Source: a virus
Direction: 5' to 3' (one strand)
IMG/VR virus record: IMGVR_UViG_3300027747_000206
Coordinates: 1 to 50,602 of that record
DNA length: 50,602 nucleotides
Each line of letters begins with the position of its first letter. The stretch's first letter is position 1. Positions 45,276 to 49,303 of the stretch are shown here, piece by piece. A model generated the notes under the pieces. The model made no database searches and was not told the origin of the DNA. It saw nothing but the letters and a program-made list of their open reading frames with translations. A program made the position numbers and the translations under genes.

Positions 45276-45707
45276 TTAACTATAAACTCTTGTGCCTTGT
45301 TTATCAATTATCAATGCTTGTCTTCTAGGTTTCCCATTTGGTTCATTTGGAATGCTTATATGCGTCCATCTATCAAATTCTCTGATGATTTGATCAAATG
45401 GTATGTCTGATGCAATTATGGCTTTAACTACATCATTTGGTGTCAAAGTAGGCACACGAAAATCGCAAGCGCAACCCACACGATGCTGAGAACGATCAGA
45501 GCTTCCCACCGAGTCATTAACTTGTTTTGACCTAAACGCTGAGTTAACCATAATTGGCTTGTTGCCAAGTAATCCTTTGACTTGCTCAAGAAGCTCTGCC
45601 AGACGTTTAAGATTGTTTTTTTCAAGGTCATTAGGTTCATTATTAAACTCCCTGTGGTCAGTTACTGTTAATTCTTCAAGAGAAAAATGGGGTGTAAGTT
45701 GTGTCAT
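45276..45707 (-). CDS. Endolysin, M15-family D-alanyl peptidase
   Basis: The zinc site is visible: SQHRVGCACDF (H75, D82) and WTHIS (H116), with VNSAFRSKQVN upstream, the order of Peptidase_M15 enzymes (VanY/endolysin type). At 143 aa it is a single catalytic domain without a wall-binding domain, typical for Gram-negative hosts. It cleaves peptidoglycan cross-links after the holin-like protein opens the membrane. It is encoded last in the lysis cassette, overlaps the holin-like gene by four bases and is followed by a terminator. Confidence 0.85.
   Translation of the reverse strand: MTQLTPHFSLEELTVTDHREFNNEPNDLEKNNLKRLAELLEQVKGLLGNKPIMVNSAFRSKQVNDSVGSSDRSQHRVGCACDFRVPTLTPNDVVKAIIASDIPFDQIIREFDRWTHISIPNEPNGKPRRQALIIDKQGTRVYS
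45279..45307 (-). promoter_or_regulatory. Candidate minus-strand promoter inside the end of the endolysin gene
   Basis: On the minus strand TTGATA (45307-45302), 17 bases, TATAGT (45284-45279): five of six matches in both boxes. It would start near 45272, directly ahead of the terminator hairpin, so transcripts for the GNAT gene would have to pass the terminator. Function uncertain. Confidence 0.4.
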
Positions 45708-45943
45708 GGTGTAGGACTTGATTTGTGAAGCAAGTCATCTTTGGCTTGTGAACCACTAGATGAACCAAAATAATAAGATAGTACTAACATCAAAGCACCA
45801 TCTAAAGTGCCCAGTACCCTTGCAACCAATTCTCTCATGGATGCGTCAATTACATGGTTGAGTAAGAAAAATTGAACTAACACCCATGCAACCACCACCA
45901 AGACTGAGAGTATTGGGGGGATGAAGATTAAAAACTCTTTCAT
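45704..45943 (-). CDS. Holin-like membrane protein (79 aa)
   Basis: Two membrane segments are predicted by eye: residues 4-30 (FLIFIPPILSVLVVVAWVLV) and about 42-62 (VLGTLDGALMLVLSYYFG), followed by a polar tail SSSGSQAKDDLLHKSSPTP. LSYYFGSSSGSQAKDDLL is of the kind seen in small holins with a YxFGSS-GS-xKD end. It overlaps both the endolysin gene and the lipoprotein gene by four bases. Holin activity is inferred from topology and context. Confidence 0.65.
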   Translation of the reverse strand: MKEFLIFIPPILSVLVVVAWVLVQFFLLNHVIDASMRELVARVLGTLDGALMLVLSYYFGSSSGSQAKDDLLHKSSPTP

Positions 45944-46689
45944 TTCTGAATAAGTCCGTTTGTGATGACTACAGGTGCAATCGTGAGTTTATTAACTGCG
46001 TTGTTCAAAGCATTTAAATCTGAGGTAATCAAAGAATTGTATGCTGTTGCTTGATTGGTCAAAGCAGTCGATATGTTGGTTGCGTTGCTTGTTGCCATGC
46101 TAGACAAAGCTGTGTTGGCGTTGTTAGCCATACTTGTCAGGGCGGTATTGGAGCTATTGCCCATGCTTGTTAGAGCTGTATTGGAGCTGTTGCCCATGTT
46201 AAACAGAGCTGTTGTTGCGTTACTCGCCACACTTGTAATTGCTGAATTACCATTTGAGGACATACTTGCTTGGTTGTTAGACCCTGTGTTGGCAATGCTT
46301 GCAAACGTAGAGTTTGTGCTCAAAGCAGTAGTCGTGGCGTTGTTAGACTGGGTTGTGGCTACCTTGGCGTTGGCGTAAATACCAAAACCTTGAACAGCAG
46401 AAGGAATCAGCAAAGAAGCCCATTTAAGAGCATCATCTCCTGAGCTTCTAGGAGCCTCTAGGCGTTGTTCTTGGGGGGCATTCATACCCATTTGCATCGA
46501 CATAACCGCCGCAACCGAGGCTGTAGGGTCACCTTTTTTAACAATCTCAGCCAATACAGCGTACCTAGCTTTTTCAGATTCAGCTTTGTAGCGAGCTATT
46601 GCCACCTGAGTTTCTGAGTATTTTGTGTAGTCAGTAGAGGCGCACCCTACCAAAGCTAAAACAATTAACGGTGTGGTTAGTTTAATCAT
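45940..46689 (-). CDS. Lipoprotein with Ser/Asn/Thr-rich repeats (249 aa)
   Basis: The N-terminus MIKLTTPLIVLALVGCASTD has a lipobox (LVGC, C16), so a lipidated periplasmic protein is expected. After a helical region (YSETQVAIARYKAESEKARY) comes a hydrophobic ALKWASLLIPSAVQGFG, then a stretch of imperfect 11-residue repeats (MGNSSNTALTS, MANNANTALSS). It lies between the spanin and holin-like genes. It may participate in lysis or be displayed from the membrane; function is unknown. Confidence 0.65.
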   Translation of the reverse strand: MIKLTTPLIVLALVGCASTDYTKYSETQVAIARYKAESEKARYAVLAEIVKKGDPTASVAAVMSMQMGMNAPQEQRLEAPRSSGDDALKWASLLIPSAVQGFGIYANAKVATTQSNNATTTALSTNSTFASIANTGSNNQASMSSNGNSAITSVASNATTALFNMGNSSNTALTSMGNSSNTALTSMANNANTALSSMATSNATNISTALTNQATAYNSLITSDLNALNNAVNKLTIAPVVITNGLIQK

Positions 46690-47164
46690 CTATCTTCTCC
46701 TTGAGAGTTTCTCTTACTTGGTTGTAGGTGGATATGCAAGCGTTGAGTGCGAGGATGGCCTTGTCACCGTCTGCTGTGATGTTGATAAGATCTTGAGAAG
46801 TCTTTGGGTCAAGATCGGCTCTTGCATTTGAATCTCCGCTGGCAGTTCTGGTGGAGTCGGCGGTACATACACTATTGGAGGCGAAGGGGACTGACAAGCG
46901 CAAAGCCCCAGACTGCACGTCAGCAGTAAGCTTGAAAATCTTAGTCTGTGCTTCATCATTTGCCTTCCTCAATTCATTTGTGGTTGTAGTTACTTTGGCG
47001 TTTAGCTCGGTTTCTTTGGCACGAGCTTCTTGATTAGCTCTTGCAACCTTTGCCACAGCCTCGTCATAACATTCTTTATATCCTGCGTGGTGACCATAAA
47101 AATATGCTCCTGTGATCGTAAGTATTACACTCAGTAGTACCCACGGGTTGAATAAACTAAACAT
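46682..47164 (-). CDS. Rz: Rz-like inner-membrane spanin (160 aa)
   Basis: An N-terminal anchor (FNPWVLLSVILTITGAYFYG) is followed by a charged periplasmic coiled coil (residues about 35-85: AVAKVARANQEARAKETELN) and a C-terminal region with two Cys. The Rz1-like lipoprotein frame lies entirely inside it in the +1 frame. The ATG overlaps the stop of the -1 frameshift product upstream (TAATG). With Rz1 it would fuse inner and outer membranes in the last step of lysis. Confidence 0.8.
   Translation of the reverse strand: MFSLFNPWVLLSVILTITGAYFYGHHAGYKECYDEAVAKVARANQEARAKETELNAKVTTTTNELRKANDEAQTKIFKLTADVQSGALRLSVPFASNSVCTADSTRTASGDSNARADLDPKTSQDLINITADGDKAILALNACISTYNQVRETLKEKIDD
46714..46956 (-). 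CDS. Rz1: Rz1-like outer-membrane spanin lipoprotein, embedded in Rz
   Basis: Embedded in the +1 frame within Rz. Signal peptide MKHRLRFSSLLLTCSLGL ends in a lipobox LCAC (lipidated Cys at C21 counted from this Met), followed by a Pro-rich SPSPPIVYVPPTPPELP segment, the classic Rz1 composition. The start was set at the second Met of the tandem pair. Nested Rz/Rz1 genes are known for phages of Gram-negative bacteria. Confidence 0.8.
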   Translation of the reverse strand: MKHRLRFSSLLLTCSLGLCACQSPSPPIVYVPPTPPELPAEIQMQEPILTQRLLKILSTSQQTVTRPSSHSTLAYPPTTK

Positions 47165-47325
47165 TACTTTGAATCCAAATGATACTTAGACTTTTGATAC
47201 TCGTTGTGAACATAGTACATCAACCCAACAAACTCAAGCACCAAAATCAAAATTGCAGCGCAAACGGTTGCCCGTACTTGGTACTTTTCAATAAGAAGTC
47301 TACGTCTGTACGCAGCTTCTGCCAC
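47164..47325 (-). CDS. Membrane-anchor segment read by -1 frameshift (or from a GTG start)
   Basis: In the -1 frame relative to the 157-aa gene, codons from the slippery site run through a coiled-coil-like AVAEAAYRRRLLIEKYQ into a membrane helix (VCAAILILVLEFVGLMYYV) and end HNEYQKSKYHLDSK, stopping with TAATG at the Rz start. A GTG at 47325 could start a separate 53-aa peptide, but it has no good ribosome site. The frame joins the upstream coiled coil smoothly, which favours frameshifting or an indel. Confidence 0.5.
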   Translation of the reverse strand: MAEAAYRRRLLIEKYQVRATVCAAILILVLEFVGLMYYVHNEYQKSKYHLDSK

Positions 47326-47720
47326 GGCTTTTTTTGCTCACGCTCAACTTTCTCACGTTCTTTTTGCACCACTACCCGCATATCAGCAAACTTAGACCAA
47401 AGTCCTGGCATCCCTACCTGATAGATAATCATCTCTCTTAAATCAGTTTCCATCTGTTGCATCTGCTCTTGACGCAATACCCTGTTCATGGCTTCTTCAT
47501 TGATGGAAATATTTTTGGGTAAAGGAACTTTTTGAGCCTCCTTCTCAGCAACCTTGAACTCTTCGTTGTGCGTGAAGAACTTACCCAAATGCTGACTGAT
47601 GTCGGTGACTATCCCTGATAAATCTTTACCATCTTCTTTGAACTCGTTATAAAGCTCCACGCATTCTTTGATTCCTGCGTGTGCCGCCTTACAAGCCGCA
47701 AAAATGGTGATTGGATCCAT
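47247..47720 (-). CDS. Lysis-region coiled-coil protein (157 aa zero-frame; 185 aa with -1 frameshift)
   Basis: The helical N-terminus MDPITIFAACKAAHAGIKEC and middle (NRVLRQEQMQQMETDLREMI, then IYQVGMPGLWSKFADMRVVV) fit a family I recall in marine and freshwater phages, whose members end in a membrane helix. Here the zero frame ends without one (PWQKLRTDVDFLLKSTKYGQ), while the -1 frame after A AAA AAG supplies the helix. The 185-aa product would be tethered to the membrane. Function unknown; its place before Rz suggests lysis or membrane interaction. Confidence 0.6.
   Translation of the reverse strand: MDPITIFAACKAAHAGIKECVELYNEFKEDGKDLSGIVTDISQHLGKFFTHNEEFKVAEKEAQKVPLPKNISINEEAMNRVLRQEQMQQMETDLREMIIYQVGMPGLWSKFADMRVVVQKEREKVEREQKKPWQKLRTDVDFLLKSTKYGQPFALQF
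47328..47334 (-). promoter_or_regulatory. A AAA AAG slippery heptamer, candidate -1 frameshift site
   Basis: In the zero frame the codons read CAA AAA AAG, giving the canonical bacterial -1 slippery heptamer A AAA AAG within a run of seven A (47335-47329). Slippage enters the frame encoding the membrane helix. A homopolymer indel in the assembly would produce the same picture. Confidence 0.5.
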
Positions 47721-47723
47721 TTG

Positions 47724-49097
47724 TTAATTTTTTAATCCCGCCAACATTCTTTTGTTATATTGTGTATACAGAGAATTGGGATCGTCGTGATCGATGGTGT
47801 TAAAACCTATAATCCTATTGCTATTAGGATTTATTGTGTACTCTTTACCGCCTGAAATAATATGGACATATCCATTTTGATCATTATATTGATCTGTTAT
47901 TGGATTAATTTTTGATGAATAAACATCCCCTATAGCATTTGTGCTTTGTGATGCAGGTCTATAAACAGGAACTGGAATAGAACTAGAACTAGCTCTAGCT
48001 CTATCTGCAACAAATTTTAAATCTTCAGCAGTTGGTGCTATTGAGTTTGCATCACTAGCCAATAATAAAGATTGCATATAAGGTGTCCAATCTTTATATT
48101 GCCCTTTGTAAAGTTGGTTCATAATAGCCACAGAATTTTCTGGATTTGTAGCCTTTGCTATTCTTGCTAAATTATTAACATCTTTTGCAGATAAATTTGG
48201 ATATTGTGATATTTCTTTTAAAAGAGTTGGGTCAGTTATCCCAAACACTTTTTGTACATTTTGATATGAATCATATTGATTGATCAATGCTTGTTTATCA
48301 GCAACACTAGTTAATGCTTTGATTTGATCACCAATTGTTTTTGTTGGATCATAAGTGGTATTGGCAGAAGGTTGACTTGTAAAACCTTGTGCTTGTGCAA
48401 AACCTTGTGCTTGTTGGATTGCTTGTGGTTGTTGCATTGCCTGTGGTTGTTGCATTGCCTGTGGTTGTTGCATTGCAGACATACTTGCAAGTGGTGAAGG
48501 TGGTGTAACACTTGTAAGTATAGGTGTACCCTCTGATGTGTAAGGCCCTTGTGGGCCATATAACACATCATCACGCAACATATTTGTTGTATCCACCAAA
48601 GGAATTATTGGTGGAGGTGGTGTAACACTTGTAAGTATAGGTGTACCTTCTGATGTGAAAGGCCCTTGTGGGCCATATAACATATCATTATCAAAACCAC
48701 CTCTCATATCTCTTAAAGGACTTATTGGTGGAGGTGGTGTAACACTTGTAAGTATAGGTGTACCTTCTGATGTGTAAGGCCCTTGTGGGCGATACAACAT
48801 ATCATTATCTTGACCACCTCTCATATCTCTTAAAGGATTTATTGGTGGAGGAGTTGTTGGAAAACCAGTTGAACCTGTTTGACTTGAATCAGTGGGATAA
48901 CTTTGTATTGGAGGAGGATTTAAAAAATTAGTTAAACCTGTTTGACCTTGATTAAACAAATTTTTTATGTTTTGATTGGTTTGATAGGCTTCATTTTGAC
49001 TAGCCAATAATTGACGTTGAGCAGTTACATCATCGCCTGTTTGTCCTGCCAAAGCATTCCATTGTGCATTTAAAGTTGGATCTGAAGAAAAAGCCAT
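47724..49097 (-). CDS. Repeat-rich structural-type protein (457 aa)
   Basis: Begins MAFSSDPTLNAQWNALAGQT. Residues about 80-200 hold three 39-residue repeats (LRDMRGGQDNDMLY-PQGPYT, then SEGTPILTSVTPPPP), followed by QPQAMQQPQAM repeats and a C-terminal domain with DLKFVADRARASSSSIPVPV. No membrane segment or enzyme motif. It is the first gene downstream of the fibre/chaperone/XhlA genes. Repeats and Pro content suggest an extended virion protein; role unknown. Confidence 0.55.
   Translation of the reverse strand: MAFSSDPTLNAQWNALAGQTGDDVTAQRQLLASQNEAYQTNQNIKNLFNQGQTGLTNFLNPPPIQSYPTDSSQTGSTGFPTTPPPINPLRDMRGGQDNDMLYRPQGPYTSEGTPILTSVTPPPPISPLRDMRGGFDNDMLYGPQGPFTSEGTPILTSVTPPPPIIPLVDTTNMLRDDVLYGPQGPYTSEGTPILTSVTPPSPLASMSAMQQPQAMQQPQAMQQPQAIQQAQGFAQAQGFTSQPSANTTYDPTKTIGDQIKALTSVADKQALINQYDSYQNVQKVFGITDPTLLKEISQYPNLSAKDVNNLARIAKATNPENSVAIMNQLYKGQYKDWTPYMQSLLLASDANSIAPTAEDLKFVADRARASSSSIPVPVYRPASQSTNAIGDVYSSKINPITDQYNDQNGYVHIISGGKEYTINPNSNRIIGFNTIDHDDPNSLYTQYNKRMLAGLKN
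48502..48852. repeat. Three 117-bp tandem repeats in the 457-aa gene
   Basis: A 117-bp unit (39 codons) containing GGTGTAACACTTGTAAGTAT occurs three times in direct tandem, with sequence differences of only a few positions. An 18-bp CTGTGGTTGTTGCATTGC repeat lies just to the left (about 48424-48476). Confidence 0.8.
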
Positions 49098-49108
49098 AAT
49101 TTATCCTT

Positions 49109-49303
49109 TTACATTCCTAAAAATTTTTTGAAAAACTCACCTGCCACATTAGGCCCCAGAAGAACAAGCAACATCACTCCATAAAGCAAATACTCTATCT
49201 TTGCCATACGCTTTTCCCCCTCTTTGAGAGAGTTGGCTATTTGTTGGTATCTTTCTTCACAGACAGCAACGTGAACAGCTAAATCTTTGTCAGTATCATT
49301 CAT
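49109..49303 (-). CDS. XhlA-like small membrane protein (64 aa)
   Basis: A charged N-terminal coiled coil (EERYQQIANSLKEGEKRMAK) precedes one membrane helix (YLLYGVMLLVLLGPNVAGEF) and a short basic end FFKKFLGM. This matches the layout of hemolysin XhlA-type proteins associated with phage lysis. It overlaps the tail chaperone gene by four bases. The exact role (holin helper or membrane anchor) is not resolved. Confidence 0.6.
   Translation of the reverse strand: MNDTDKDLAVHVAVCEERYQQIANSLKEGEKRMAKIEYLLYGVMLLVLLGPNVAGEFFKKFLGM

Follow-up and report, generated by a model that had tools for sequence, protein, structure and literature searches.

We describe a gene in a 50,602-base IMG/VR virus record (the window, analysed over its whole length) that reads into a membrane anchor only if the ribosome changes frame. 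Sequence comparison leads us to hold with high confidence that conserved programmed -1 frameshifting would occur in this gene, and with good confidence that a dnaX-type explanation would account for the whole, including an anchored and a soluble product. In the proposed mechanism, ribosomes would pair with an internal Shine-Dalgarno (SD)-like sequence, GAGCGUGA, meet a hairpin and pause on the heptamer A AAA AAG. Some would slip back by one base and make a 185-aa protein in which the coiled coil leads on into a membrane helix at the C-terminus; the remaining ribosomes would terminate past a short unconserved tail, giving a soluble 157-aa form. The features are collected in Table 1, where all coordinates of the frameshift gene are on the minus strand.

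Table 1. Features of the frameshift gene and its neighbours in the window.
Feature	Position	Strand	Remarks
Zero-frame ORF	47247..47720	(-)	157 aa; helical N-domain and coiled coil; without membrane helix
SD-like site GAGCGTGA	47338..47345	(-)	3 nt upstream of the heptamer; contains the TGA closing the -1 frame
Slippery heptamer A AAA AAG	47328..47334	(-)	Within the A7 run 47335-47329; codons CAA AAA AAG
Predicted stimulatory hairpin	47294..47320	(-)	11 bp, one bulge; begins 7 nt after the heptamer
-1-frame extension	47164..47328	(-)	54 aa and stop; would give the 185-aa anchored product
Predicted transmembrane helix TVCAAILILVLEFVGLMYYV	47209..47268	(-)	RRR directly before; KD19 at least 1.99 in 72/72
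Rz-like spanin gene	46682..47164	(-)	phrog_1327 E 2e-19, phrog_3198 E 5e-8; ATG overlaps the -1 stop
Rz1-like ORF	46714-46959		Inside the Rz-like gene
Short two-helix membrane protein, holin candidate	45704..45943	(-)	79 aa; 75% identity over 72 aa to L017 4546-5043
M15-family endolysin	45276..45707	(-)	PF08291 E 1e-16; phrog_894 endolysin E 3e-33
Coiled-coil and TM protein, XhlA-like by layout	49109..49303	(-)	64 aa; ORF and layout only

Two reading frames and their predicted products

The A7 run at 47335..47329 places the in-frame heptamer at 47334..47328. A -1 slip there would yield a product reading EREQKK followed directly by AVAEAAYRRRLLIEKYQVRATVCAAILILVLEFVGLMYYVHNEYQKSKYHLDSK and a stop. 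The -1 frame ends with TAA 47166-47164, which shares bases with the Rz-like ORF's start codon, ATG (47164), in the sequence TAATG. Upstream of the junction this frame is shut by TGA 47340-47338, so that it could be entered solely at the heptamer or later, and the 3-codon gap between that stop and the junction was identical in all 72 distinct sequences compared. Across the same set, the -1 tails had a minimum KD19 of 1.99 (mean 2.27), and KD19 was below 1 in 70/72 of the zero-frame tails. An earlier note on this DNA had described a 157-aa zero frame without a membrane anchor, -1 slippage at A AAA AAG leading into a membrane helix, and a -1 frame ending at TAATG on the Rz start; these three observations were borne out. 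Because RRR precedes the helix, we infer that the protein would insert with its N-terminus in the cytoplasm.

The fused product matched phrog_32327 over residues 1-171 (E 2e-9), and the family was also matched by the DC31 relative, in which the gene is one continuous frame; the phrog_32327 entry has no function assigned and does not note a frameshift. The phrog_32327 / MDP layout (N-domain, coiled coil and C-terminal TM helix) was found in the fused product and is shared by the continuous relatives. The frameshift protein matched nothing in Pfam or NCBIfam and no named PHROG family. The structural model of the zero-frame protein was poor (pLDDT 52, with 20 homologues in the input), and that of the continuous relative was moderate (66.5), with one long C-terminal helix. 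Fold matches of the latter model were uncharacterised phage proteins only, and no convincing match was found among solved structures. A search of genome contigs with an alignment as query gave no relative, and hence no prophage or host.

Conservation of the junction and selection downstream of it

With the fused protein as query, a scan of IMG/VR gave at least 119 relatives, of which 80 were kept. Nearly all of those kept had two pieces in two frames, with the junction at codon 128-129 and A AAA AAG there; at one locus that the program did not parse (L044), the same sequence was read by eye. In each of the 72 distinct sequences the heptamer stood at the same codon and the run counted exactly seven A, and the 9-mer at the junction was CAAAAAAAG in 71/72 and GAAAAAAAG in the other. 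A second scan used the -1 tail alone as query and was designed to catch continuous versions of the tail. It found AAAAAAG exactly at the junction, with a closed frame upstream, at 152/152 evaluable loci (some contigs are counted twice in this number, having been fetched by both scans, and two further loci were cut by contig ends). No continuous-frame version of the tail was present among these 152 loci. An in-frame A AAA AAG is by itself not rare, occurring about 4 times in the ~16,000 ORF codons of the window; as judged by this comparison, its conservation in every distinct sequence, always with seven A and always at the junction, is beyond chance. At L016 and near-identical loci, a second in-frame A AAA AAG was observed at zero-frame codon 62 (KK before NPLP), which is probably a chance occurrence.

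A7 runs are typical error sites, and the earlier note had named as the alternative a mutation, or an error of sequencing or assembly in the homopolymer. The two-frame layout with seven A recurs in 72 distinct sequences from many metagenomes, and it is also carried by four contigs (L001-L004) that are nearly identical and come from separate samples. Because this layout is shared so widely, sequencing or assembly error is excluded by the comparison as the explanation of the two frames, and with the tail-only scan having given no continuous-frame tail, an error or a frameshift mutation in a single genome has a negligible chance of being correct. The earlier note had also proposed comparing homologues for a continuous frame or a conserved heptamer; the heptamer was kept throughout the relatives that share this anchor, and continuous frames were seen only in distant branches.

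To measure divergence by codon position, we used 37 representatives below 93% identity. From -90 to -61, divergence at zero-frame codon positions 1, 2 and 3 was 0.14, 0.05 and 0.49; from 0 to +29 it was 0.24, 0.56 and 0.32. At the heptamer, the peak of variability thus passes from the third to the second position of zero-frame codons, the latter being where the third position of -1-frame codons falls. This switch indicates that downstream it is the -1 frame that is selected, and that protein-level selection, as read from these alignments, acts on it after the heptamer. The zero-frame tails differ in length (26, 29, 35 or 41 codons) and sequence, and the -1 tail keeps its membrane helix and a motif, LMYxIHxDYxxSK.

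A selected -1 frame could also be a separate small membrane protein initiated internally near GTG 47325, which is the second -1 codon in the window and has the SD-like site upstream. We consider this very improbable: the position of the GTG is CGT, ACT, CTT, ATT or similar in most relatives, the first 20 -1-frame codons contain no ATG, GTG or TTG in 28/72 distinct sequences, and internal initiation would leave the conservation of the heptamer needless.

Signals flanking the heptamer and known systems

The SD-like site was assessed by sequence and pairing energy. Located at -18 to -11, it is the best anti-SD partner in a 300-nt region, with a mean pairing energy of -7.9 kcal/mol vs a regional mean of -2.2. 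Among the 37 representatives, codon diversity was zero at four invariant residues between -18 and the heptamer (GAG, CGT, AAA and AAG); the 27 other invariant residues upstream had a mean codon diversity of 0.50, with none at zero. By this measure, the nucleotide-level constraint spans both the heptamer and the SD-like element.

This pattern also bears on transcriptional slippage, in which RNA polymerase would add one A within the run and produce the same fusion without ribosomal frameshifting. Runs of A can slip, and an mRNA with one A more would encode an identical protein (Q-K-K-A). We nonetheless regard transcriptional slippage as improbable, with the run being exactly seven in 72/72, transcriptional realignment being reported at runs of more than 7 A (PMC3711429), and the final G and the SD-like site being conserved when neither is needed by a slipping polymerase.

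Ribosomal frameshifting would further be favoured by the predicted hairpin, which in the window has an energy of -12.3 kcal/mol (z -3.1). Stimulatory structures usually begin 5-8 nt downstream of the slippery site (PMC4066793). A hairpin was predicted in the same stretch in 37/37 representatives, at -9 to -15 kcal/mol, and folding of +2..+44 gave a mean MFE of -12.1 and a mean z of -1.7 vs synonymous resampling; control segments mostly had z near 0, but the one at -162 gave z -1.5. The 7 sequences of the window's own subclade have a hairpin in common, 7 nt after the heptamer, with 11 shared pairs and changes from G-U to G-C and A-U. These changes are one-sided, with no fully compensatory change in the 7 sequences, and RNAalifold returned no consensus hairpin from the pooled alignment of the 37 representatives, in which the pairs differ between subclades. 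Because of the differing pairing and the one-sided changes, support from sequence is less firm for the hairpin than for the heptamer and the SD-like site.

The predicted arrangement is like that of E. coli dnaX (tau/gamma), which has A AAA AAG, an SD-like element before it and a hairpin within a few nt after it (PMC3711429, PMC5009743), a signal that works at about 50% efficiency (PMC3711429). The gene and protein are unrelated, and the frameshift product, shorter in dnaX, would here be longer and carry a membrane anchor. Two products with a common N-terminus also arise by -1 slippage in the phage tail assembly chaperones G/GT (PMC5009743), which are another gene at another place in the genome, whereas the part added here would be a membrane helix. 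Similarly, phage coat and tail proteins can bear Ig-like domains at the C-terminus that are added by frameshift or in frame, depending on the phage (PMC5009743), but what these add is a domain on the virion surface and not a membrane anchor.

Relatives, lysis region and possible role

The membrane helix was found in the same continuous frame in 67/67 evaluable distant relatives near the Limnohabitans phage DC31 branch, and in nearly all relatives of the MW202462 branch. Most exceptions in the latter were due to an early end of the contig or ORF; another was L153. At L153 (3001-3760), the part encoding the membrane helix lies in the +1 frame, a single case that might reflect an error or else a second instance of gating. 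In the continuous-frame relatives, no shift is needed and the C-terminal sequence differs from that of the frameshift clade. Since the anchor of distant relatives lies in one continuous frame, this distribution suggests that frameshift gating is probably derived in one freshwater phage clade.

Within this clade, a 64-66-aa coiled-coil/TM protein often abuts the frameshift gene upstream. Downstream there is a 164-167-aa membrane protein (phrog_1544, a holin candidate by its place), or Rz, or a different membrane protein; an M15 endolysin or a lysozyme comes next. Several continuous-frame relatives occupy the same lysis-type setting; in Roseobacter phage CRP-9, the homologue lies beside terminase genes and not within an annotated lysis cassette. 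The counterpart by position of the XhlA-like protein in L241 had a weak match to phrog_1193 hemolysin (E 0.003). Some features of the window itself were observed in addition. A 457-aa ORF (47724-49097) sits between the XhlA-like and frameshift genes and is absent from relatives with a listed gene order; it contains a 117-bp tandem repeat (3.1 copies, 48492-48851) and an 18-bp repeat (48406-48476). Between Rz and the short holin candidate, a 249-aa protein (45940-46689, minus strand) has a lipoprotein-like start, LALVGCAS, and 33-bp repeats encoding a SNTALTSM motif, with no convincing family match. In relatives, the frameshift gene is followed by that of a 166-aa membrane protein; the 79-aa holin candidate corresponds to the C-terminal half only of this protein, the N-terminal half being missing here.

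The most likely purpose of the frameshift would be to set the anchored/soluble ratio of a coiled-coil factor of the lysis region, with the soluble form acting as a partner or decoy of the anchored one. In phage lambda, the holin and antiholin S105/S107 are two forms of one lysis gene made in a set ratio from two start codons; here the two forms would instead arise through frameshifting, and its place next to lysis genes makes the protein at most a candidate holin or antiholin. The position of the gene suggests that the frameshift may tune lysis through the anchored-to-soluble ratio, which we put forward as a possibility rather than an expectation.

Translation of the next lysis gene may also be tied to shifted ribosomes, since it is the -1 stop, not the zero-frame stop, that overlaps or abuts its start codon. 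This stop lies at -14 to +1 nt from the next ATG in 65/72 distinct sequences, with the zero-frame stop another 26-86 nt upstream of it. Frameshifting could accordingly be real and yet selected mainly as a means of translationally coupling the lysis gene that follows (holin-like or Rz; compare the MS2 lysis gene), and less for a ratio between two forms of the protein. We think this unlikely, with the tail being kept as a protein down to its helix and motif, and the same overlap of stop and start being present in several continuous-frame relatives. Many of the next genes also appear by eye to carry their own SD sites, so coupling may matter little. A broader reading, in which a freshwater clade evolved a -1 frameshift to gate the anchor of an otherwise always-anchored coiled-coil protein of the lysis region, and in which ratio and coupling together would time lysis, is offered more tentatively than that of the ratio by itself.

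In the open-licence papers searched, we found no programmed frameshifting that decides the membrane anchor of a phage protein, and none for this gene family, papers on lysis-gene frameshifts included. Gene callers annotate the soluble half alone and so overlook a conserved anchor. The relatives provide a natural comparison, with the protein always anchored in them and here anchored only upon a ribosomal slip, and this comparison of clades makes the phage's need for both forms directly testable.
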